Below are positions 46,198-57,702 of a DNA stretch of 64,000 bases, one piece after another. The DNA comes from Gemmatimonadota bacterium (GTDB lineage: Bacteria; Gemmatimonadota; Gemmatimonadetes; Gemmatimonadales; Gemmatimonadaceae). Numbering within the stretch: position 1 is the stretch's first letter; each line of letters starts with the position of its first letter. A program made the position numbers and the translations under genes. Location of the stretch: positions 62,001 through 126,000 of the forward strand of contig JAIOPJ010000039.1 in NCBI GenBank assembly GCA_021413975.1. Reading direction: 5' to 3'. The notes under the pieces were generated by a model, which was not told where the DNA came from, ran no database searches, and was given only the letters and a program-made list of their open reading frames with translations.

Positions 46198-46308
46198 CTG
46201 AGGGCAGATGCGAGATGGGAGATGTGAGAGGTGAGTGACGCTCTCCGCACCCTGTCTCCGCTCGCCGGCTCTTACCTCTCCCATCTCCCCTTCCCATCTG
46301 CAGTTCAG
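46198..46308. repeat. Purine/pyrimidine inverted repeat element, copy A
   Basis: The purine arm 46198-46235 contains GAGATGGGAGATGTGAGAGG. The pyrimidine arm 46271-46308 contains ACCTCTCCCATCTCCCCT and ends CAGTTCAG. The arms are imperfect complements about 35 bp apart. The pyrimidine arm is nearly repeated at 50294-50332, and the element ends only 13 bp before the dioxygenase start. Confidence 0.6.
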
Positions 46309-46321
46309 AGGATTCCCGCCA

Positions 46322-47446
46322 ATGGCCACGACGACCGCCCCCGCCAAGGAAACGGCGCACGACACCTTCCCGATCAACGGGACCGACTACATCGAGTTCT
46401 GGGTCGGCAACGCGAAGCAGTCCGCGCTCTTCTATCGTGCGGCATTCGGCTTCCAGCTCACCGGATACCGCGGACCCGAGACGGGCGTCCGCGACCGGGC
46501 CAGCTACCTGCTCGAGCAGGGGAAGATCCGCCTCGTGCTCACCACGCCCATGGGGCCCGAGGGCGAGATGGCCGCGCACATCGCCAAGCATGGCGACGGC
46601 GTCCGCGACATGGCCTTCTGGGTCGACGACGCGCGCGATGCCTACGCCAAGGCGATCGAGCGCGGCGCCGTGTCGGTGCAGGAACCCACCGTGATGAAGG
46701 ACGACCAGGGCGAGGTCATCATCGCCGGCATCCGCACCTACGGTGACACGATCCACTCGATCGTCGAGCGCAAGAACTACCGCGGCCCCTTCATGCCCGG
46801 CTTCCGCAAGACCGAATCGCCCTTCATGCCCGCGCCCGTGGGACTCAAGTACGTCGACCACTGCGTCGGCAACGTCGAACTCGGCAAGATGAACCACTGG
46901 GTCGACTTCTACTCCAAGGTCCTCGGCTTCTACAACCTGCTCTCGTTCGACGACAAGACCATCAGCACCGAGTACTCGGCGCTCATGTCGAAGGTGATGA
47001 CCAACGGGAACGGCCGCATCAAGTTCCCGATCAACGAGCCGGCCGCCGGCAAGAAGAAGTCGCAGATCGAGGAGTACCTGGACTTCTATCGCGGGCCCGG
47101 CGTGCAGCACATCGCCGTGGCGACCGACGACATCATCACGACCGTGCGCCAGCTCAAGTCGCGCGGCGTCGAGTTCCTGACCATCCCGAAGGTGTACTAC
47201 GACACCGTGCTCGACCGCGTGGGGAAGATCGACGAGGACATCGCGCCGCTCGCCGAACTCGGGATCCTCGTGGACCGCGACGACGAGGGCTACCTGCTGC
47301 AGATCTTCACCAAGCCGGTGTTCGACCGGCCGACCCTCTTCTTCGAGATCATCCAGCGCAAGGGCGCCAAGAGCTTCGGCGCCGGCAACTTCAAGGCGCT
47401 CTTCGAGAGCATCGAGCGCGAGCAGGCCCTGCGAGGCAACCTGTAA
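46322..47446 (+). CDS. hppD: 4-hydroxyphenylpyruvate dioxygenase
   Basis: A 374-residue non-haem iron enzyme made of two vicinal-oxygen-chelate halves. The iron ligands are the histidine in YVDHCVGN, the histidine in VQHIAVATDD and the glutamate in LFFEIIQRKG. It converts 4-hydroxyphenylpyruvate to homogentisate, the second step of tyrosine catabolism. The C-terminal GAGNFKALFESIEREQ helix is typical. ATG 46322 matches family N-termini. Its stop overlaps the hmgA start by TAATG, so the two are coupled. Confidence 0.94.
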   Translation: MATTTAPAKETAHDTFPINGTDYIEFWVGNAKQSALFYRAAFGFQLTGYRGPETGVRDRASYLLEQGKIRLVLTTPMGPEGEMAAHIAKHGDGVRDMAFWVDDARDAYAKAIERGAVSVQEPTVMKDDQGEVIIAGIRTYGDTIHSIVERKNYRGPFMPGFRKTESPFMPAPVGLKYVDHCVGNVELGKMNHWVDFYSKVLGFYNLLSFDDKTISTEYSALMSKVMTNGNGRIKFPINEPAAGKKKSQIEEYLDFYRGPGVQHIAVATDDIITTVRQLKSRGVEFLTIPKVYYDTVLDRVGKIDEDIAPLAELGILVDRDDEGYLLQIFTKPVFDRPTLFFEIIQRKGAKSFGAGNFKALFESIEREQALRGNL

Positions 47447-48627
47447 TGCCGTTCTATCACACGCTCGGCCAGATCCCCCGCAAGCGGCACATCGCGTTCC
47501 GCAAGCCGGACGGGGGGCTCTACAACGAACAGCTCGTCGGGATCGAGGGATTCACCGGACCGTCGGCGCTGCTGTACCACCTGTATCCGCCCACCACCGT
47601 GAAGTCGGTGCGCCGGCTGGCCGAGACGCCGTACGTCGAGGACACCGATCGCGCGCTCCGGCACCGGCACTTCCGCACGGCGCCGATCGCGCGCGGCGGC
47701 AGCCCCACGCTCGACCGCGTCCCGATGCTCTTCAACAACGACATCGCGATGCTCTACGTCGCGCCCGACGAGCAGGACGAGCACTTCTATCGCAATGCGC
47801 AGGGCGACGAAGTGGTCTACGTCGCCGAAGGGGAGGGGACGCTCGAGACGCAGTACGGCGACCTGCCCATCAAGCCGGGGGACTACCTGGTGATCCACCG
47901 CCACATCCTGCACCGGTACCGGTTCACCAAGCCGGCCAAGCTCCTCGTGATGGAGTCGCGCGGCCACATCCGGCCGCCGTCGCGGTATCTCAACAACGTG
48001 GGGCAGATGGTCGAGGGCGCGCCGTACAGCGAGCGCGACATCCGCGTCCCTCGCGTGTTGCGCACGCACGACGAGAAGGGCGACTTCCCGCTGGTGATCA
48101 AGCAGTACAACGGACTCAACGAGGTCGTGCTCGACCACCACCCGCTCGACGTGATCGGCTGGGACGGGCAGTTCTACCCGTGGGCGTTCAACATCCACGA
48201 CTTCGAGCCCATCGTCGGCCGGGTGCACCAGCCCCCGCCGGTGCACCAGACGTTCCAGGGCGACGGCTTCGTGATCTGCTCGTTCTGTCCGCGGCCCTAC
48301 GACTTCCATCCCGAGGCGATCCCCGCGCCGTACAACCACAGCAACGTCGACTCCGACGAGGTGCTCTTCTACGCCTCGAGCGAGTTCATGAGCCGCAAGG
48401 GGATCGAGTACGGGAGCATCACGCATCATCCCGACGGCATCCCGCACGGCCCGCATCCGGGCCGGTACGAGGGGAGCATCGGCATGACGCACACCAACGA
48501 GCTCGCGGTCATGATGGACTCGTTCCGTCCGCTCAAGGTGGCGAAGGCGATCCTGCCGTACGAGGACGCGAAGTACATGTTCTCGTGGATCGAGCCGGGG
48601 CAGGGATTCTCGCCTCCGACCTCTTGA
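47446..48627 (+). CDS. hmgA: Homogentisate 1,2-dioxygenase
   Basis: A 393-residue cupin-type ring-cleaving dioxygenase, of the shorter bacterial form. Segments NNDIAMLYVAP, DEVVYVAEGEGTLET and the metal region YNHSNVDSDEVLFYASSEF plus HPGRYEGSIG are characteristic. It opens homogentisate to maleylacetoacetate. It is coupled to hppD by TAATG and to the next gene by TGATG. The isomerase and fumarylacetoacetase needed to finish the route are not in the window. Confidence 0.93.
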   Translation: MPFYHTLGQIPRKRHIAFRKPDGGLYNEQLVGIEGFTGPSALLYHLYPPTTVKSVRRLAETPYVEDTDRALRHRHFRTAPIARGGSPTLDRVPMLFNNDIAMLYVAPDEQDEHFYRNAQGDEVVYVAEGEGTLETQYGDLPIKPGDYLVIHRHILHRYRFTKPAKLLVMESRGHIRPPSRYLNNVGQMVEGAPYSERDIRVPRVLRTHDEKGDFPLVIKQYNGLNEVVLDHHPLDVIGWDGQFYPWAFNIHDFEPIVGRVHQPPPVHQTFQGDGFVICSFCPRPYDFHPEAIPAPYNHSNVDSDEVLFYASSEFMSRKGIEYGSITHHPDGIPHGPHPGRYEGSIGMTHTNELAVMMDSFRPLKVAKAILPYEDAKYMFSWIEPGQGFSPPTS

Positions 48628-50333: not shown

Positions 50334-51509
50334 ATGTTCACCAAGCGCTTCGAAAGCCTCCCCGTCTACCTCCTCGCCACCATCCCGCAGAAGAAGCGGG
50401 ACCTGATCGCGAAGGGCGTCGATGTGATCGACCTCGGCGCCGGCGACGCCGACCTGGCTCCGCCGCCCGCGGCGGTCGCCGCCTTGCAGGCCGCCGCCGC
50501 GGATCCGAACATGAGCCGCTATGGCTTCGGACTCGGTCTCCCGGCCTATCGCGAGGCCGTGAGCGCGTGGATGCAGAAGCGATTCGGGCACACCTTCGAT
50601 CCGCTCAAGGAGGTCGTGCCCCTCATCGGCAGCAAGGAGGGCATCGCGCACCTGGCGTTCGCCTACCTGCAGAAGGGGGACGTCGCGATCATCCCCGATC
50701 CCGGCTATCTCGCCTACCTGGGTGGTACGCTGCTGAGCGAAGCCGAACCGTATCTCTACCCGATCACGCCGCGCACGAACTTCCTCGTCGAGCTCGACGA
50801 GATCCCTGCCGAGGTGCTCAAGCGAGCGAAGATCCTCTACCTGAACTATCCGAACAACCCGACCGCCGCCGTCGCGCCGATGGAGTACCTCGAGCGGGTG
50901 GTGCGCCGCTGCAAGGAACTCGGGATCATCCTCGTCTACGACAACGCCTACTCGGAGATGACCTTCGACGGCTACGTCGCGCCGAGCATCTTCGACGTCC
51001 CGGGCGCGCGCGACGTGGCGATCGAGTTCCATTCGCTCTCCAAGACGTACAACATGACCGGTTGGCGCTGCGGCTGGGCCTGCGGCAATGCCGCGATCGT
51101 CGGCGCGCTCGGTAAGGTGAAGAGCTTCCTCGACACGGGGCAGTTCATGGCGGTGCAGAAGGCCGGCATCGCGGCGCTCGATTCATGGGCGTCCTGGGTG
51201 CCGGGCAACGTCGAGGTCTTCCGCGAGCGGCGAGACGCCGCGGTGGCGGCCTTCCGCGCGAACGGGTTCGCCGGCGTGGAGTCGCCGAAGGCGTCGATGT
51301 ACCTCTGGGTGCCGCTGCCTGCGGGGATCAAGTCGCTCGAGTTCCACGAGCGGCTCATGGCGGAGGAGGGCGTGATCGCGCTCGCGGGCTCGTCGCTCGG
51401 TGCGGGCGGGGAAGGGTTCTTCCGTGTCTCGTTCGTCACGAGTCCGGCGCGCATCACCGAGGCGGCGGTGCGGGCCGGTCGTGTGCTCAGGAGGATGGAG
51501 GCCCGGTGA
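50334..51509 (+). CDS. Class I aminotransferase, LL-diaminopimelate aminotransferase-like
   Basis: A 391-residue PLP enzyme. It has the DapL-like pattern VIDLGAGDADLAPPPAAVAAL, PDPGYLAYLGGTLLS, NYPNNPTAAVA and the PLP lysine in FHSLSKTYNMTGWR. DapL makes LL-diaminopimelate from tetrahydrodipicolinate for lysine and peptidoglycan, but this broad group also contains aspartate and aromatic aminotransferases. No dap genes are nearby, so the substrate stays open; lying close to tyrosine catabolism, an aromatic role is possible. The start ATG directly follows the repeat arm, with no obvious ribosome-binding site. Confidence 0.8.
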   Translation: MFTKRFESLPVYLLATIPQKKRDLIAKGVDVIDLGAGDADLAPPPAAVAALQAAAADPNMSRYGFGLGLPAYREAVSAWMQKRFGHTFDPLKEVVPLIGSKEGIAHLAFAYLQKGDVAIIPDPGYLAYLGGTLLSEAEPYLYPITPRTNFLVELDEIPAEVLKRAKILYLNYPNNPTAAVAPMEYLERVVRRCKELGIILVYDNAYSEMTFDGYVAPSIFDVPGARDVAIEFHSLSKTYNMTGWRCGWACGNAAIVGALGKVKSFLDTGQFMAVQKAGIAALDSWASWVPGNVEVFRERRDAAVAAFRANGFAGVESPKASMYLWVPLPAGIKSLEFHERLMAEEGVIALAGSSLGAGGEGFFRVSFVTSPARITEAAVRAGRVLRRMEAR

Positions 51510-52162
51510 ACGCGCGTCCGGCGCTGCTGGCAGCCGCACTGTCGCTCGTCGCGTCGACCGCGTGCCGGACCTCGAGTGGCGTGGCCGATCCGCGGTCTCT
51601 CCGGCCGCCGCGCGAGATGCAGTTTCCGGGAGGCGTGAGGATGACCCCTGCCTTGGTCCTCCTCGGCCTCGAGGAGGATCGGCGCTTCCGGTGGGTACCC
51701 CCCGACTCGCTCCTGCGCGGACTCACATCGGACGACGTCGCGAGTGTCGGCTCGCCGACGGTCCTCGGTCTCCGGGAGTCGGTCGAGACCGTGGTCACCG
51801 CCAACGGTTGGCGTCTCGTGCCCGATTCCGCCGACTACGAGATCGCGATCTTCACCGTGGCGCGCACCGAGTTGCGGCGGGAGACGCGCACCGAGCAGGC
51901 GGTCACGGCGACGACGGGTCTTCCGCGCTGCGACGAGTCGAAGGGGCAGCGCGCGGGCAGCACGTGCAGCAACAACCCGGTGAGTTCACGGTCCTACGAG
52001 GTCGGCGTGCCGCTCACCGTGCGCAACGTCTTCCATGTCGTGCGCCGACGCGCCGATGGGGCCGTGCGTGTCTGGGTGAACCCCGACGGGAACCTCCCCG
52101 CGGTCGAGGCCACCGTCGCGCGCGATCTCCTGCGTCTCTTCCTCAGTCGCGATCCAGAATGA
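51506..52162 (+). CDS. DUF4136-like lipoprotein
   Basis: A 218-residue lipoprotein. GTG 51506 overlaps the stop of the aminotransferase gene. The signal peptide ends in the lipobox ASTAC (Cys20). The mature part has LVPDSADYEIAIFTVARTELRRE and a YEVGVPLTVRNVFHVVRRRADG segment, as in DUF4136 lipoproteins, whose function is unknown. A small disulfide-like pair (CDES, TCSN) lies between. Its end overlaps the end of the convergent fusion gene by 20 bp. Confidence 0.65.
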   Translation: MNARPALLAAALSLVASTACRTSSGVADPRSLRPPREMQFPGGVRMTPALVLLGLEEDRRFRWVPPDSLLRGLTSDDVASVGSPTVLGLRESVETVVTANGWRLVPDSADYEIAIFTVARTELRRETRTEQAVTATTGLPRCDESKGQRAGSTCSNNPVSSRSYEVGVPLTVRNVFHVVRRRADGAVRVWVNPDGNLPAVEATVARDLLRLFLSRDPE

Positions 52163-55100
52163 GCACGACGAGACGCGACGTCGTGCCGCCGCCTGTCGCG
52201 ATCGCGACGAACTGGCGCCCGTCGCTCGTGCGGTAGGTCATCGGGTTCGCGTACGCCTGCTGCCCCAGGTCGAACTCCCAGAGCGTCACGCCGGTGCGCG
52301 TGTCGATGGCATGCAGCACACGGCCGCCGCCCGAGGCGAACACGAGCCCGCCGCCCGTGACGAGTCCGCCCGGAGACCCCGATACGCCGAGCCGCGCCGG
52401 GAGCACCGCGCCGCGAAGCGCGGGGTGGTGACGGACCTCGGGCGTATCACCGAGCGGGACCTGCCACATGGTCTCGCCCGTGTTCATGTCCACGGCGGTG
52501 AGCGTGCCGTAGGGCGGCTTGTTCACGGGCAATCGCGTGGAAGACCGATCCGCGCCCTCGGCGTTGTCCCGCTGCGACACGCCGAGCGAGGAACGCGGCA
52601 GGTCGACCATGTAGGGCGTGTCCACCGTGTCGCTCGTCCGCTCGCGCCTCACGAGCCGGAAGAGCGCGGGCGCGTTCGAGCCCTTCACGAAGAGCCAGCC
52701 CGTGCTCGGGTCCGCGGCGGCGCCCCCCCAGCCGGCGCCACCGATCACGCCGGGCATCGCCACCGTTCCCTGGAGCGAAGGTGGAGAGTAGATCGGCCCG
52801 AGTCGGTATGGCGCGAGCTCGTCGAGCGCGGCCTGACGCAACGCCGGCGTGAAGTCCATCACGTCGTCGACCGTGAGCCCCTGCCTGGTGAACGGGGCAG
52901 GGCGAGTGGGGAACGGTTGGGTCGGCGATGCGACCTCGCCCGGCACGTCGCTCGCGGGGACCGCGCGTTCCTCGATCGGCCAGAGCGGCGTTCCGGTCGC
53001 GCGCTCGAACGCGAAGAGCATCCCTTGCTTCGTGGGCACGACGACGATGTCGGTCCGTCGCCCTGCGTGCATCACCGTCATGAGGTTCGGCGGTGCGGGG
53101 AGGTCGTAGTCCCAGAGTCCGTGGTGCGCGACCTGGAAGTGCCAGACCCGCCGGCCGGTCCGGGCATCGAGCGCTACCAGCGACTCGCCGAACAGGTTCG
53201 CACCCTTCCGCTCGCCACCGTACCAATCGTCACTCGGCGTGCCGACGGGAAGGAAGACCAGCCCCCGCGCGCTGTCGACCGTGAAGGGTGCCCACACGTT
53301 CGTGTGTCCCTTGTAGCGCCACGACCCGTTCTCCCACGTCTCGTTCCCCACCTCACCGGGTTCCGGCACGGTCTTGAAGCGCCAGACGCGACGCCCCGTC
53401 CGTACGTCGAATGCCTGCACGTCGCCCGGCGGATCGCCGCGATAGACGAGCCGGTCACCGACGCCGTTGCCGACGATCACCAGGTCGCCCCAGATCACCG
53501 GAGGCGAGGTGTTGGTGTAATGCTCGCGCCGCACCTCGCGCGAGAGACCGGCCGTGAGGTCGATCTCGCCCCGCGCGCCGAATGACGGGATCGGCCTCCC
53601 GGTGGTGGCATCGAGCGCGATCAGTCGCCAACGCGAGTTGATGAACACGCGCCGGCTGCGGCCGTCGGTCCAGGTGGCCACGCCGCGATGCACGAAGCCG
53701 GTGCCGTTGCTCGGCTGGCCGTACCCTTTCCACGGCTGCGGGTCATACGACCAGAGTTCACGCCCGTTGCGCGCGTCGAGTGCCACCACGCGGTTGTACG
53801 GCGTGGGGAAGAACAGCGTGTCGCTGATCGCGAGCGGCGTGGCCTGGAAGAGACCCGGGCGCGCCGCCTTCTGTCCCTCACTCGCAGCGACGGGGCGTTC
53901 GTTCGCGTCCCAGCGGAACGCGACGCGCAGTCCCTGCACGTTCGTGCGGTCGATGTCGCTGAGCGCCGAGTACTTGAGTCCACCCGCGTCGTTGCCGTAC
54001 GCGGCCCAGCCGACGGCGCCGCCGCGCGCGCGATCGAGCCGCGCCGGGGCCACCACGGCCGCACCACCCTTCATCACGAAGGCGATGCGCTGCAGCGCCG
54101 TGATGTCGGTGAGCGGATCGCCGTCCACCGCGATGAGGTCCGCCACGCGCCCCTCGGCCACCGTGCCGATGCTGTCGCCGAGTCCGAGCGCCTCGGCGGC
54201 GAGCGACGTCGCCGAGCGGATCGCGTCGGCATTCGGCTGGCCCGCCTCGCGCACCCGGAAGACGATCTCGCGCGCGTTCTGACCGTGCGCCCCGGCGACG
54301 GCGTCGGTCCCCATCACCACCTTGAGTCCCGGGGTGTTCATCGCGGCCCGGAAGACGATGAGGTTCTTCGGGGTGACCTCCTCCATGAACCGGAAGCCCT
54401 CGTCGGTGAAGTTCCCGGTGCCGAGGAAGCGCGCGCGGTTCTCGAGGTAGTTCTGGATCACGAGCCCGATGTTCGGCTCGAAGTACGTGCCGCGCTCCGC
54501 CATGAGGGTCAGCTCGCTCGCGGTCACCTGCGTGCCGTGCGTGACGCCGGTGCAGCCGGCGTTCGCCGCGGCCCGCACGGCCGACGCGGCGTGGGCATGC
54601 ACCCAGCTCCGGAGGCCGAGGCGGCGCGCCTCGTCGCAGGCGGCGGCGATCTGCGCATCGCTCAGTGTCTGGCCGCCACCCTCGCGGATGCTCTTGGACG
54701 CGAAGATCTTGATCACGTCGGCGCCGCGCGCGGCCGTGGCACGCGCCCACTCGCGGATCTGTTCCGGCGTCCGCGACGTGTCCGTGAACTGGGCCACGGC
54801 GGTGAGGATGCGCGGTCCCTCGGCGCGCCCGTCGGCGATCGCGGCGCGCAGGTCGAGGTCGATGGCGGCACCGAGGCTCTGCACCGTGGTGAATCCCGCG
54901 CGCAGCGTGAGTTGCGCGTTCTCCATGGCAGCGCGCAGGCGCTGCTGCGGCGTCTCGCCCCGGGTGTTCGCGCGTCCGTCGGAGCCGAAGTGCCCGTCGA
55001 TGTGCACATGGGTGTCGATCAATCCCGGCATGACCGTGCGGCCCGAGAGATCCCACGACACGGCGGTGCCCGCACGCCAGGGCGCGATGCGCGTGATCCG

Positions 55101-55280
55101 CGTGCCGTCGATCGTGAGCACCACGTCGCGCTGCACGCTCCCGCGCCCGTCGAGGAGCACGCCGGCGCGGATCGTGGTCGGGGCGCGGACCGCCCGGGGC
55201 ACCGGGTCCTGCGGCTCCGCACTCATCGAGCCGGCTGCGATCAGGACGGGAAGGGAGAACAGTACGACGCGGCTCAGCAT
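52143..55280 (-). CDS. Fusion of amidohydrolase and PQQ glucose-dehydrogenase-like propeller
   Basis: A single stop-free frame of 1045 residues starting at ATG 55280 with a signal peptide (residues 1-20). Residues 30-415 are an imidazolonepropionase-like amidohydrolase: GLIDTHVHIDGHF (metal HxH), SWVHAHAAS, MGTDAVAGAHG and ADLIAVDGDPLTDITAL. From about 425 (WAAYGNDAGGLKYSALSDI) to the end is a PQQ beta-propeller like membrane glucose dehydrogenase, with repeated Trp-docking turns (GRRVWHFQVAHHGLWDYDL, GETMWQVPLGDTPE). Each half is complete. The propeller lacks its own signal peptide. I know no standard protein of this build, so the activity is open: it could hydrolyse and oxidise a common substrate in the periplasm. 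Confidence 0.85.
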   Translation of the reverse strand: MLSRVVLFSLPVLIAAGSMSAEPQDPVPRAVRAPTTIRAGVLLDGRGSVQRDVVLTIDGTRITRIAPWRAGTAVSWDLSGRTVMPGLIDTHVHIDGHFGSDGRANTRGETPQQRLRAAMENAQLTLRAGFTTVQSLGAAIDLDLRAAIADGRAEGPRILTAVAQFTDTSRTPEQIREWARATAARGADVIKIFASKSIREGGGQTLSDAQIAAACDEARRLGLRSWVHAHAASAVRAAANAGCTGVTHGTQVTASELTLMAERGTYFEPNIGLVIQNYLENRARFLGTGNFTDEGFRFMEEVTPKNLIVFRAAMNTPGLKVVMGTDAVAGAHGQNAREIVFRVREAGQPNADAIRSATSLAAEALGLGDSIGTVAEGRVADLIAVDGDPLTDITALQRIAFVMKGGAAVVAPARLDRARGGAVGWAAYGNDAGGLKYSALSDIDRTNVQGLRVAFRWDANERPVAASEGQKAARPGLFQATPLAISDTLFFPTPYNRVVALDARNGRELWSYDPQPWKGYGQPSNGTGFVHRGVATWTDGRSRRVFINSRWRLIALDATTGRPIPSFGARGEIDLTAGLSREVRREHYTNTSPPVIWGDLVIVGNGVGDRLVYRGDPPGDVQAFDVRTGRRVWRFKTVPEPGEVGNETWENGSWRYKGHTNVWAPFTVDSARGLVFLPVGTPSDDWYGGERKGANLFGESLVALDARTGRRVWHFQVAHHGLWDYDLPAPPNLMTVMHAGRRTDIVVVPTKQGMLFAFERATGTPLWPIEERAVPASDVPGEVASPTQPFPTRPAPFTRQGLTVDDVMDFTPALRQAALDELAPYRLGPIYSPPSLQGTVAMPGVIGGAGWGGAAADPSTGWLFVKGSNAPALFRLVRRERTSDTVDTPYMVDLPRSSLGVSQRDNAEGADRSSTRLPVNKPPYGTLTAVDMNTGETMWQVPLGDTPEVRHHPALRGAVLPARLGVSGSPGGLVTGGGLVFASGGGRVLHAIDTRTGVTLWEFDLGQQAYANPMTYRTSDGRQFVAIATGGGTTSRLVVLILDRD

Positions 55281-55405
55281 CAACGCCTCGGGGAACGGGT
55301 GCGGAGCAATCTGCGCGGTGCGGCCCGCGGCGGCCAGAACGCGTCCCCGTCGCATTCGCCGGGCCGGCGCTCGCGCGCGACTCGAGTGCGAGTTACCATC
55401 CCCGC

Positions 55406-56074
55406 GTGACGACAGACCGCCGGGACTTCATCAAGCGCGCCGCCCTCGCGGCCGCCTCCGCGTCGAGCATCGGCGCGACCGATGCGATCGTGCAGGCCGC
55501 CGCCCCCGCGCCGGCTTCGCCTCCGGCGCAAGCGGCCGCGAGCGCGACGGGGCAGGACCCCGCACGACCGGCGCCGCGAGCACTCGATCCGGCGCTCCTT
55601 GGCGCGCTCGGTGACGCGGTCCTGCCGGAGATGCTCGGCGCACCGGGGCGGCAGCGCGCCATCGCCGCCTTCTCCACCTGGCTCGCGCGCTACGTGCCGG
55701 TGGCCGAGGAGATGCACGGCTACGGCGACGCCGAGATCACCTACACGCCGAGCGACCCGGCACCCGGGTGGAACGCCCAGCTCCGAGGGCTGGACCTGCT
55801 CGCGCGCCGCAAGCACCGTCGCGGCTTCACGCGCCTTGGCGTACCGCAGCGTCGTGAGATCGTGCGCACGCAACTCGCACGCGTGAGCGGCGCGCGCCTG
55901 CCGTCCAATCCGCTCGCCGCCTCGCATGTCGCCGTGGCACTCCTCTCCCACTGGGCCGCCTCGAGCGAGGCGACGGACCTCGCCTACGAGGCGCGCATAA
56001 TGAAGGAGAACTGCCGGGTGCTCTCCGAGACCTCGCGCGCGCCGCTGCCGCTCGCCACCACGGGGGAGGCATGA
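55406..56074 (+). CDS. Gluconate 2-dehydrogenase subunit 3-like protein, Tat-exported
   Basis: A 222-residue small subunit. The N-terminus RRDFIKRAAL is a twin-arginine signal, so the subunit is exported folded, probably carrying its GMC partner. After an Ala/Pro-rich linker (residues 30-60), ALGDAVLPEMLGAPG marks the subunit-3 family. GTG 55406 is the start; GTTACCAT upstream could be its -10. It overlaps the following GMC gene by ATGA. The partner usually needs this subunit for export and folding. The divergent neighbour is the amidohydrolase-PQQ fusion. Confidence 0.83.
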   Translation: MTTDRRDFIKRAALAAASASSIGATDAIVQAAAPAPASPPAQAAASATGQDPARPAPRALDPALLGALGDAVLPEMLGAPGRQRAIAAFSTWLARYVPVAEEMHGYGDAEITYTPSDPAPGWNAQLRGLDLLARRKHRRGFTRLGVPQRREIVRTQLARVSGARLPSNPLAASHVAVALLSHWAASSEATDLAYEARIMKENCRVLSETSRAPLPLATTGEA

Positions 56075-57702
56075 CCGCACCGCGCATCCTCGAGGCGGAC
56101 ATCTGCATCGTGGGGTCGGGCATCACCGCCGCTCTCATGGCCGAGAAGCTCGCGGCCGAACGCGACGCCACGATCCTCGTGGTCGAGGCCGGCGGCCATT
56201 CGACTCCATTGCGTGAGCGGGCGTTACGCCGGAACCGCTGGCTCGAGTATGGCGAGACGCCCTGGCCGAACGACCATCTCGACGACCAGAACGCACTCGG
56301 CACCGCGTACGGGTTCTCCCCGTCCATGAACGTCGGCGGTCTCGCGCTGCACTGGGGCGGCGTCACGCCGCGCTACTCGCCGGAGGACTTCCGGCTCCGC
56401 ACGCTCTACGGCGTCGGGGATGACTGGCCGATCACGTACGACGACCTCGATCCCTTCTATCAGGAGGCCGAGGAACGGATCGGCATCGCGGGAGAGCAGG
56501 GGCCGCCGGAGATGGACCCCCGTGGGAAACCGTTCCCGATGCCCGCGCTCCCGCTCAGCCAGAACCTGCAGCGGCTCCGCGAGTGGACGGGGAAGGCCGG
56601 CATCTCCATGTGGAGCCAGCCGAGCGCGAAGAACTCGGTGCCATATCACGGTCGTGGCGCGTGCCAGCGCTGCGACACCTGCTACCCCATCTGCCCGAGC
56701 GGCGCGAAGTATTCCCCCGACTTCTCGTTCGACGCCCTCGTGCGCGCGGGGCGCATCCGGCTCGTGACCGACACGCTCGTGCGCCGCCTGCACACCGACG
56801 CGCGGACCGGGCGCATCACGCACGCGACCGCCAACGCGACGAAGCAGCCGGCGCAGGAGGTCACCATCCGCGCCAGGAGCTTCGTGCTCGCTGCCGGCTT
56901 CACGTGGACGCCGCACCTGCTCCTGCTCTCGGCCGGCGGCGCGTATCCCGGTGGAATCGCGAACCGCTCCGGGCTCGTCGGCAAGTACCTCTGCGGGCAT
57001 CGCAACGTGGGAGCGCAGATCCGCCTGCCGATGAAGCTTTTCCCGGGCGTCAATGCGCAGCACTCGCTCGTCACGAAGCAGTTCATGCGCCCCGGGGCGC
57101 TCAGCAAGTACATCCGGCACGACCTGCGCGTGTGGGAGTCGTCATTCGGCCAGGAGCCGCGCCTGCGCGACGACTCGGGTGAGCTGCTGTTCGGGGACGC
57201 GCTCGTGACCGACTGGCGCTCGCGCACCGTGAAGGGCACGGCGAGGGTGCGCGCCTACTACGATGTGCTCCCTGCGCGCGAGAGCGAGCTCACGCTCGAT
57301 GCGAGCGCGAAGAACGGCTGGGGCGATCCGATGCCGCGTCTCCGGTTCCGCGACGCCCCCGAGTCGGTCGCGCTGCGTGCCTGGACGGAGCAGACGATCC
57401 GCGAGCTCTTCCAGCGCATGGCGCGCGCCGGCGACGGCGAGATCATCTCCAGTGCGTCGGCGGCAGGCGACATCGGCCAGGAGCACCCCGGCGGCGGCTG
57501 TCGGATGGGGAACGACCCGGCGACGAGCGTCGTCGATCGCCACGGCCGGTCGCATGATCACGAGAACCTGTTCATCGCCGGGGCACCGACGAACGTGACG
57601 GCGAGTTGCTGCAATGGCACGCTCACCTTCGCCGCCCTCGGTCTGATGACCGCGGCGACGGTCGGCGAAGCGTTCACAGCGCGTTCACCGCGCAGCCCGT
57701 AA
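56071..57702 (+). CDS. GMC oxidoreductase, gluconate/glucose dehydrogenase type
   Basis: A 543-residue FAD enzyme. The dinucleotide motif is CIVGSGITAALMAEKL near residue 12. PSMNVGGLALHWGG and the C-terminal HPGGGCRMG and NVTASCCNGTLTFAAL segments mark the GMC family. CQRCDTCYPICP around residue 200 is a cysteine cluster as in the bacterial FAD glucose and gluconate dehydrogenases, where cysteines hold a 3Fe-4S cluster. It oxidises a polyol or sugar acid in the periplasm with the Tat-exported small subunit. The third subunit, a multihaem cytochrome c, is not in the window. Confidence 0.85.
   Translation: MTAPRILEADICIVGSGITAALMAEKLAAERDATILVVEAGGHSTPLRERALRRNRWLEYGETPWPNDHLDDQNALGTAYGFSPSMNVGGLALHWGGVTPRYSPEDFRLRTLYGVGDDWPITYDDLDPFYQEAEERIGIAGEQGPPEMDPRGKPFPMPALPLSQNLQRLREWTGKAGISMWSQPSAKNSVPYHGRGACQRCDTCYPICPSGAKYSPDFSFDALVRAGRIRLVTDTLVRRLHTDARTGRITHATANATKQPAQEVTIRARSFVLAAGFTWTPHLLLLSAGGAYPGGIANRSGLVGKYLCGHRNVGAQIRLPMKLFPGVNAQHSLVTKQFMRPGALSKYIRHDLRVWESSFGQEPRLRDDSGELLFGDALVTDWRSRTVKGTARVRAYYDVLPARESELTLDASAKNGWGDPMPRLRFRDAPESVALRAWTEQTIRELFQRMARAGDGEIISSASAAGDIGQEHPGGGCRMGNDPATSVVDRHGRSHDHENLFIAGAPTNVTASCCNGTLTFAALGLMTAATVGEAFTARSPRSP

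Follow-up and report, generated by a model that had tools for sequence, protein, structure and literature searches.

The stretch of DNA considered here (the window) comprises 64,000 nucleotides of contig JAIOPJ010000039.1 from a Gemmatimonadota bacterium of the family Gemmatimonadaceae. Its minus strand carries, at 52143..55280, a single gene for a protein of 1045 residues in which an amidohydrolase (AH) is fused to a propeller of the pyrroloquinoline quinone (PQQ) type, as defined by translation of the frame and by Pfam. This fusion is genuine and conserved. It recurs in six genomes with a low ratio of nonsynonymous to synonymous substitution rates (dN/dS) in both halves, which rules out chance and mis-assembly. 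The favoured reading, to which a probability of about 0.55 is given, is that of a secreted, two-headed hydrolase and PQQ dehydrogenase, which would form part of a four-part periplasmic oxidation module running on scavenged PQQ. We infer that both heads are active, that they are located in the periplasm and, because of the fusion and of gene adjacency in two phyla, that they share a pathway. The fusion combines known families in a new way and is no new type of machine. The open-access literature searches listed nothing relevant to a characterised protein of this type or to its module, in agreement with the preliminary description of this DNA.

The frame runs from an ATG at 55280 to a stop codon at 52143–52145 with zero internal stops, and upstream it is still open to another ATG at 55355. 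The one uninterrupted polypeptide of the preliminary description, for which no strand had been given, is thereby confirmed. The G+C content of the three codon positions is 0.70, 0.54 and 0.90. From the N- to the C-terminus, the protein consists of a signal-like N-terminus (approximately residues 1–21; 55218..55280, minus strand, read from the sequence), the AH, a linker of approximately 12 residues (residues 413–424; 54009..54044, minus strand, placed by alignment) and a full-length PQQ-type propeller. In the predicted model, the predicted local distance difference test (pLDDT) score is below 50 for residues 1–31 and for residues 414–432 in the region of the linker, which is predicted to be short and flexible. 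In the alignment of the fused proteins, the linker of the G134 relative is 11 residues longer. The only cysteines are Cys 215 and Cys 243, both of which reside in the AH half, and a CxxCH motif is absent. That the junction results from mis-assembly or a frameshift has a negligible probability: nothing was found in favour of this, and it is ruled out by the same in-frame, stop-free junction in six genomes of different species.

The fusion is present over nearly its whole length in at least six of the 179 genomes of the family; its absence from related genomes had been named in the preliminary description as grounds for rejecting it. The carriers are the genome of the window (G000), three others of the same genus (G148, G134 and G136) and two of other genera (G077 and G053), and the other full-length fused proteins are 74–88% identical to that of the window. 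Among the matches listed, no further fusion with a frame open across the junction is present in 395 genomes of the phylum, a sample that includes the six carriers, and none occurs in 297 genomes of Acidobacteriota, the phylum of G434. As few candidates were scored per genome (at most four in the family, three in the phylum and two in the Acidobacteriota), a fusion that is divergent or truncated may have escaped detection. A survey of AH loci in named records, comprising the best 80 loci, returns the fusion in three Gemmatimonadota metagenome-assembled genomes (MAGs; L110, L111 and L128), taken to be the same genomes as G077, G053 and G148. In a plasmid collection, 727 records match the whole-protein query, none covers 80% of it, and no fusion is found there. 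Across six pairs, dN/dS (Nei–Gojobori) is 0.07–0.30 for the AH half and 0.07–0.23 for the propeller half, narrowing to 0.07–0.09 and 0.07–0.08, respectively, in the three closest pairs; for the 17–18 linker codons it is 0.06–0.57.

The AH domain spans residues 34–412 (54045..55181, minus strand), as placed by Pfam and by PDB 3mtw in both sequence and fold. Pfam Amidohydro_1 matches residues 82–408 (E 1.6e-40), and comparison of the sequence with 3mtw gives an E of 2e-52. The protein shows the metal site of the amidohydrolase superfamily (HxH, Lys, His, His and Asp on a TIM barrel), and H91, H93, K191, H228, H230, H248 and D326 are invariant in the alignment of the six fused proteins, so that the catalytic metal-site residues are intact, as had been claimed. 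The roles of the individual residues of this site, and a label of the COG1228 type, are assumed here. For this half, Foldseek gives target template modelling (TM) scores of 0.81–0.87 in the 50 matches listed, and the pLDDT of its model is mostly at least 90. The fused protein does not reach the cut-off of the Xaa-Pro dipeptidase family NF051886 (227.7 of 500 bits). Fold and metal-site residues are shared with Cc2672 and related Xaa-Arg/Lys or Xaa-Pro dipeptidase-like amidohydrolases (3mtw and 2qs8; ochratoxin amidase ADH3, 8ihq), but the close PDB relatives have chains of 387 to 496 residues and no propeller, unlike the fusion. From the known structures and from two publications, this group of AHs is known for acting on amide bonds (PMC11342369, PMC13081902).

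The propeller domain occupies residues 425–1045 (52146..54008, minus strand), on the basis of a full-length PF01011 domain, an alignment to Klebsiella Gcd, and sequence and fold matches. The Pfam PQQ profile (PF01011) matches residues 425–1025 from position 1 to 595 of 595 (E 1.1e-194; 648.9 bits vs. a cut-off of 26.7). Both domains are thus complete, and the junction lies where a propeller normally begins, two points on which the preliminary description was correct. Alignment to Klebsiella Gcd reveals that WDYDLP (723–728) and TKQG (750–753) are kept; these motifs presumably bear the catalytic Asp and the PQQ-contacting Lys. The best NCBIfam match is TIGR03074 (glucose/quinate/shikimate dehydrogenases), with 432.8 bits against a cut-off of 832.65. 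The protein falls outside this membrane-bound family, as the match starts at model position 154 and the AH replaces the N-terminal part of Gcd. Gcd, the membrane-bound PQQ glucose dehydrogenase, has in common with the propeller half a full PF01011 domain, the WDxD and K motifs and the absence of a vicinal Cys pair, but carries its membrane part at the N-terminus, where the fusion has the amidohydrolase. PQQ-dependent alcohol and methanol dehydrogenases possess a vicinal Cys–Cys pair in the active site, which is visible in the aligned PDB chains. The propeller half has no Cys at all and does not belong to that class.

The quinoprotein alcohol dehydrogenase 8gy2 matches the propeller half with an E of 1.4e-32, mainly over the first 350 residues, and Foldseek also returns quinoprotein alcohol dehydrogenases, with TM-scores of 0.59–0.74 and root-mean-square deviations of 6–8 in the 50 matches listed. 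The pLDDT is lower here than in the AH half and drops below 50 in several stretches, one of which (522–531) lies near the expected active site. The predicted TM-score of the whole-protein model is 0.62, which makes the relative placing of the two domains untrustworthy. Based on the PQQ-site motifs that are kept, the propeller is a putative quinoprotein. It is unlikely that it instead serves as a scaffold or for binding and has lost the use of PQQ, with the AH as the sole enzyme. Such a role would suit the nearest relatives of the AH (eight rows), which bear a C-terminal FG-GAP propeller instead and imply that the AH may tolerate a propeller in an accessory role; the 'acido-empty-quinoprotein' family is also among the NCBIfam matches, far under its cut-off (213.4 of 650 bits). 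Against this stand the retention of WDYDLP and TKQG in comparison with Gcd, the lower dN/dS of the propeller half in five of the six pairs, and the presence of a PqqU-like receptor.

This receptor bears on the supply of the cofactor. PqqC was found in none of 10 genomes, including the six carriers; a Klebsiella record, used as a control since 14 initial controls gave no PqqC match, scores 388.5 bits. PqqE, the only other synthesis gene sought, gives weak matches in all 10 genomes and in all 14 controls, none above the cut-off. A relative of E. coli PqqU over most of its length is present in each of the six fusion genomes (30–32% identical), and F99, R304, R365 and R536 are present in the best match of every one. 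One study describes Y/F/W99, R304 and R365 as the PqqU signature, and PqqU as widespread in Gemmatimonadetes, often in genomes without PQQ synthesis (PMC12124388). The genome of the window encodes a second, weaker receptor that lacks the signature.

The two halves also occur as separate, neighbouring genes. Twenty-four loci (L014–L037) hold a lone propeller that is 60–76% identical, with a flank of at most 1.5 kb, and in eight of these (L024 and L026–L032) an AH gene lies directly upstream on the same strand. The two genes are likewise adjacent in L053 (another family of the order), L095, L096 and L112 (a further Gemmatimonadaceae MAG). As called, they overlap by a few bases in wider loci such as L091, L092 and L095 and by 7 bases in an acidobacteriotal pair (L121, Bryobacterales), although such overlaps depend on mechanically called start codons. 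The genome of the window itself encodes a second, distant and unfused pair, AH followed by propeller (L038:5072-8500, minus strand), with a 4-base overlap (GTGA). The propeller of this pair carries a CxxCH haem motif (CASCH), which the fusion lacks.

Eight loci of the same bacterial family (L069–L076) encode AHs fused to an FG-GAP propeller (e.g., L069:6416-9073, minus strand). Their AH domain is a sister to that of the fusion (59–67% identical) and likewise has a C-terminal propeller, but one of another kind, comprising FG-GAP and UnbV_ASPIC in the one protein scanned with Pfam. A word search returned no paper on these proteins. The AH tree (46 rows) unites the six fused proteins in one clade (support 100/99) within a 15-row group (99/95) that also contains the eight FG-GAP-fused AHs and L077, with the operonic AHs elsewhere. 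In the propeller tree (44 rows), they again form one clade (100/100), inside a group of 17 rows (99/100) whose other members are 11 lone propellers, and the operonic propellers come next with weak support (84/59). The inner branching of the fused clade is identical in both trees. Long branches (the paralogues of the window's genome, Klebsiella and Novosphingobium) are unsure in both, and seven propeller-only rows of the alignment are partly misplaced in the AH region (83–113 residues each). Since the clade is single in each tree, branches alike in both and has different neighbours for each half, the simplest reading of the sequences is a single fusion event, with the halves probably drawn from different neighbours. 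For the AH half, the tree does not bear out a simple joining of the operonic pair, as this half clusters with the AHs fused to FG-GAP. Either an FG-GAP propeller may have been replaced, or the two kinds of fusion may have arisen apart.

That the partners do not derive from one simple pair might indicate an accidental fusion of two unrelated enzymes without a common substrate. This is improbable, as the genes for AH and propeller stand side by side in several unfused genomes of two phyla, and the fusion has been kept in six genomes since its one origin. Such a rare fusion of two enzymes, whose genes are neighbours in some relatives, hints that both act on the same compound.

Upstream of the fusion, a divergent pair of genes lies across a gap of 125 bases between the start codons (55281..55405), or of 50 bases with 55355 as the start of the fusion. 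This gap may be a promoter region common to both sides. The first (55406..56074, plus strand) encodes a small subunit resembling gluconate 2-dehydrogenase subunit 3, in which a twin-arginine-like motif (DRRDFIKR) can be read from the sequence. PF13618 matches it with an E of only 0.094; the G083 homologue (44% identical) passes, at 25 vs. 23.4 bits. The second (56071..57702, plus strand) encodes a GMC flavoprotein dehydrogenase of the type of the catalytic subunit of flavin adenine dinucleotide (FAD)-dependent glucose dehydrogenase, as judged from PDB matches to 6a2u (E 3.6e-69) and the large subunit of fructose dehydrogenase (E 5e-66); its Cys cluster, CxxCxxCxxxC, begins at residue 198. A report on the FAD-glucose dehydrogenase of Burkholderia assigns FAD together with a 3Fe-4S cluster to the catalytic subunit and describes the small subunit as a hitch-hiker for twin-arginine export (PMC9727119). 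It is the neighbouring genes, and not the fusion, that match the type of this complex (6a2u).

Both genes adjoin the fusion in five of the six genomes. In G083 (L090), the order on one strand is small subunit, GMC, AH and propeller, and in the Bryobacterales locus (L121) it is AH, propeller, small subunit and GMC; the small subunit of the latter is 32% identical to that of the window and has no Pfam match. In L033 and L081, a GMC gene directly precedes a lone propeller, without an AH. Among the best 80 loci, both genes accompany 15 of the 57 AHs outside the fusion with at least 45% identity, compared with 0 of the 19 with 31–39%, the mean locus length being similar. Three of these 57 loci hold all four parts, and L115, likewise among the 57, is an FG-GAP fusion. 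The remaining four loci of the 80 are the three fusions, two of which have both genes, and L123, which lacks an AH match at the threshold. In three further acidobacteriotal loci (L138, L140 and L141), the small-subunit and GMC genes are followed, on the same strand, by two AH genes of this group.

In the favoured scheme of a two-headed enzyme, the N-terminal, metal-dependent amidohydrolase would cut an amide (or lactone). The C-terminal propeller, with PQQ and a metal ion, would oxidise a hydroxyl either of that compound or of the resulting product, and the flexible linker would hold both heads together. The divergently encoded FAD/iron–sulfur protein of the sugar-dehydrogenase type and its small subunit would complete the four-part periplasmic module, from which electrons would pass to the respiratory chain. 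PQQ would not be made by the host but would be imported via the PqqU-like receptor. Because the neighbours are of the sugar-dehydrogenase type, a sugar-like or polyol compound is suggested as the substrate. The coupling of periplasmic hydrolysis to quinone-linked oxidation, as first proposed in the preliminary description, is plausible and has independent support in the adjacent genes of two phyla and the PQQ-importer-like receptor. The divergent flavin dehydrogenase genes did not feature in that description, and neither the pairs of unfused genes nor the FG-GAP-fused counterpart could be seen in it.

Several observations weigh against this scheme. The structurally known AHs nearest to that of the fusion are peptidases or ochratoxin amidases, i.e., amide cutters, and the neighbouring genes suggest no amide-bearing compound. 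For 16 of the 24 lone propellers, the flank of at most 1.5 kb contains no AH, some of these propellers lying at contig ends. In G053, the fusion has neither the small-subunit nor the GMC gene next to it, and the two genes occur together in only three (L081, L090 and L092) of the 22 wide loci with a non-fused propeller (L078–L084 and L090–L104). The PQQ contacts Q84 and K274 of PqqU vary among the receptors of the fused genomes. Finally, the genomes are drafts (that of the window is 92.71% complete), so a missing PqqC is no proof that PQQ is not made.

A more specific form of the same scheme is that of a dehydrogenase–lactonase, modelled on the route from glucose via gluconolactone and gluconate to 2-ketogluconate. 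The propeller would oxidise an aldose to its lactone, the AH would open this lactone and so yield the aldonic acid, which the flavin dehydrogenase would then oxidise further. This version draws on TIGR03074 as the best, albeit sub-threshold, match of the propeller, on the FAD sugar-dehydrogenase type of the neighbours and on the conservation of the parts together in two phyla. It is nonetheless doubtful, given the peptidases and ochratoxin amidases that are the nearest AHs of known structure, and no lactonase of this AH group is named in the titles and opening lines of abstracts that a search on this point listed.

The two-headed enzyme of the favoured reading would point to a periplasmic route on scavenged PQQ that is undescribed in the literature searched. 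With regard to origin, a tentative proposal, with the odds somewhat against it, describes a quinoprotein with a built-in hydrolase, which would unite two successive steps of a periplasmic oxidation route on one chain. Its AH lineage, which carries C-terminal propellers, would have swapped an FG-GAP propeller for a catalytic one of the PQQ type, acquired from an older module of AH, propeller and flavin dehydrogenase common to Gemmatimonadota and Acidobacteriota. If true, one hydrolase lineage has been paired with two unrelated kinds of propeller. In environmental bacteria, the families of PQQ propellers and amidohydrolases are large and for the most part uncharacterised, and gene fusion and kept adjacency are among the few routes to their partners.

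Further genes are found in the vicinity. From 60009 to approximately 61150 on the minus strand, the window encodes another Xaa-Pro-dipeptidase-like amidohydrolase (NF051886, 273.9 of 500 bits), of which a 74–76% identical copy is located near the fusion in G148 and G136. A convergent, lipoprotein-like frame (approximately 51500–52162, plus strand) overlaps the 3′ end of the fusion by 20 bases. At 46235–48627 (plus strand), there are two adjacent genes that we take to resemble 4-hydroxyphenylpyruvate dioxygenase and homogentisate dioxygenase. This pair is kept near the fusion in G148, and its second gene also in G134 and G136.

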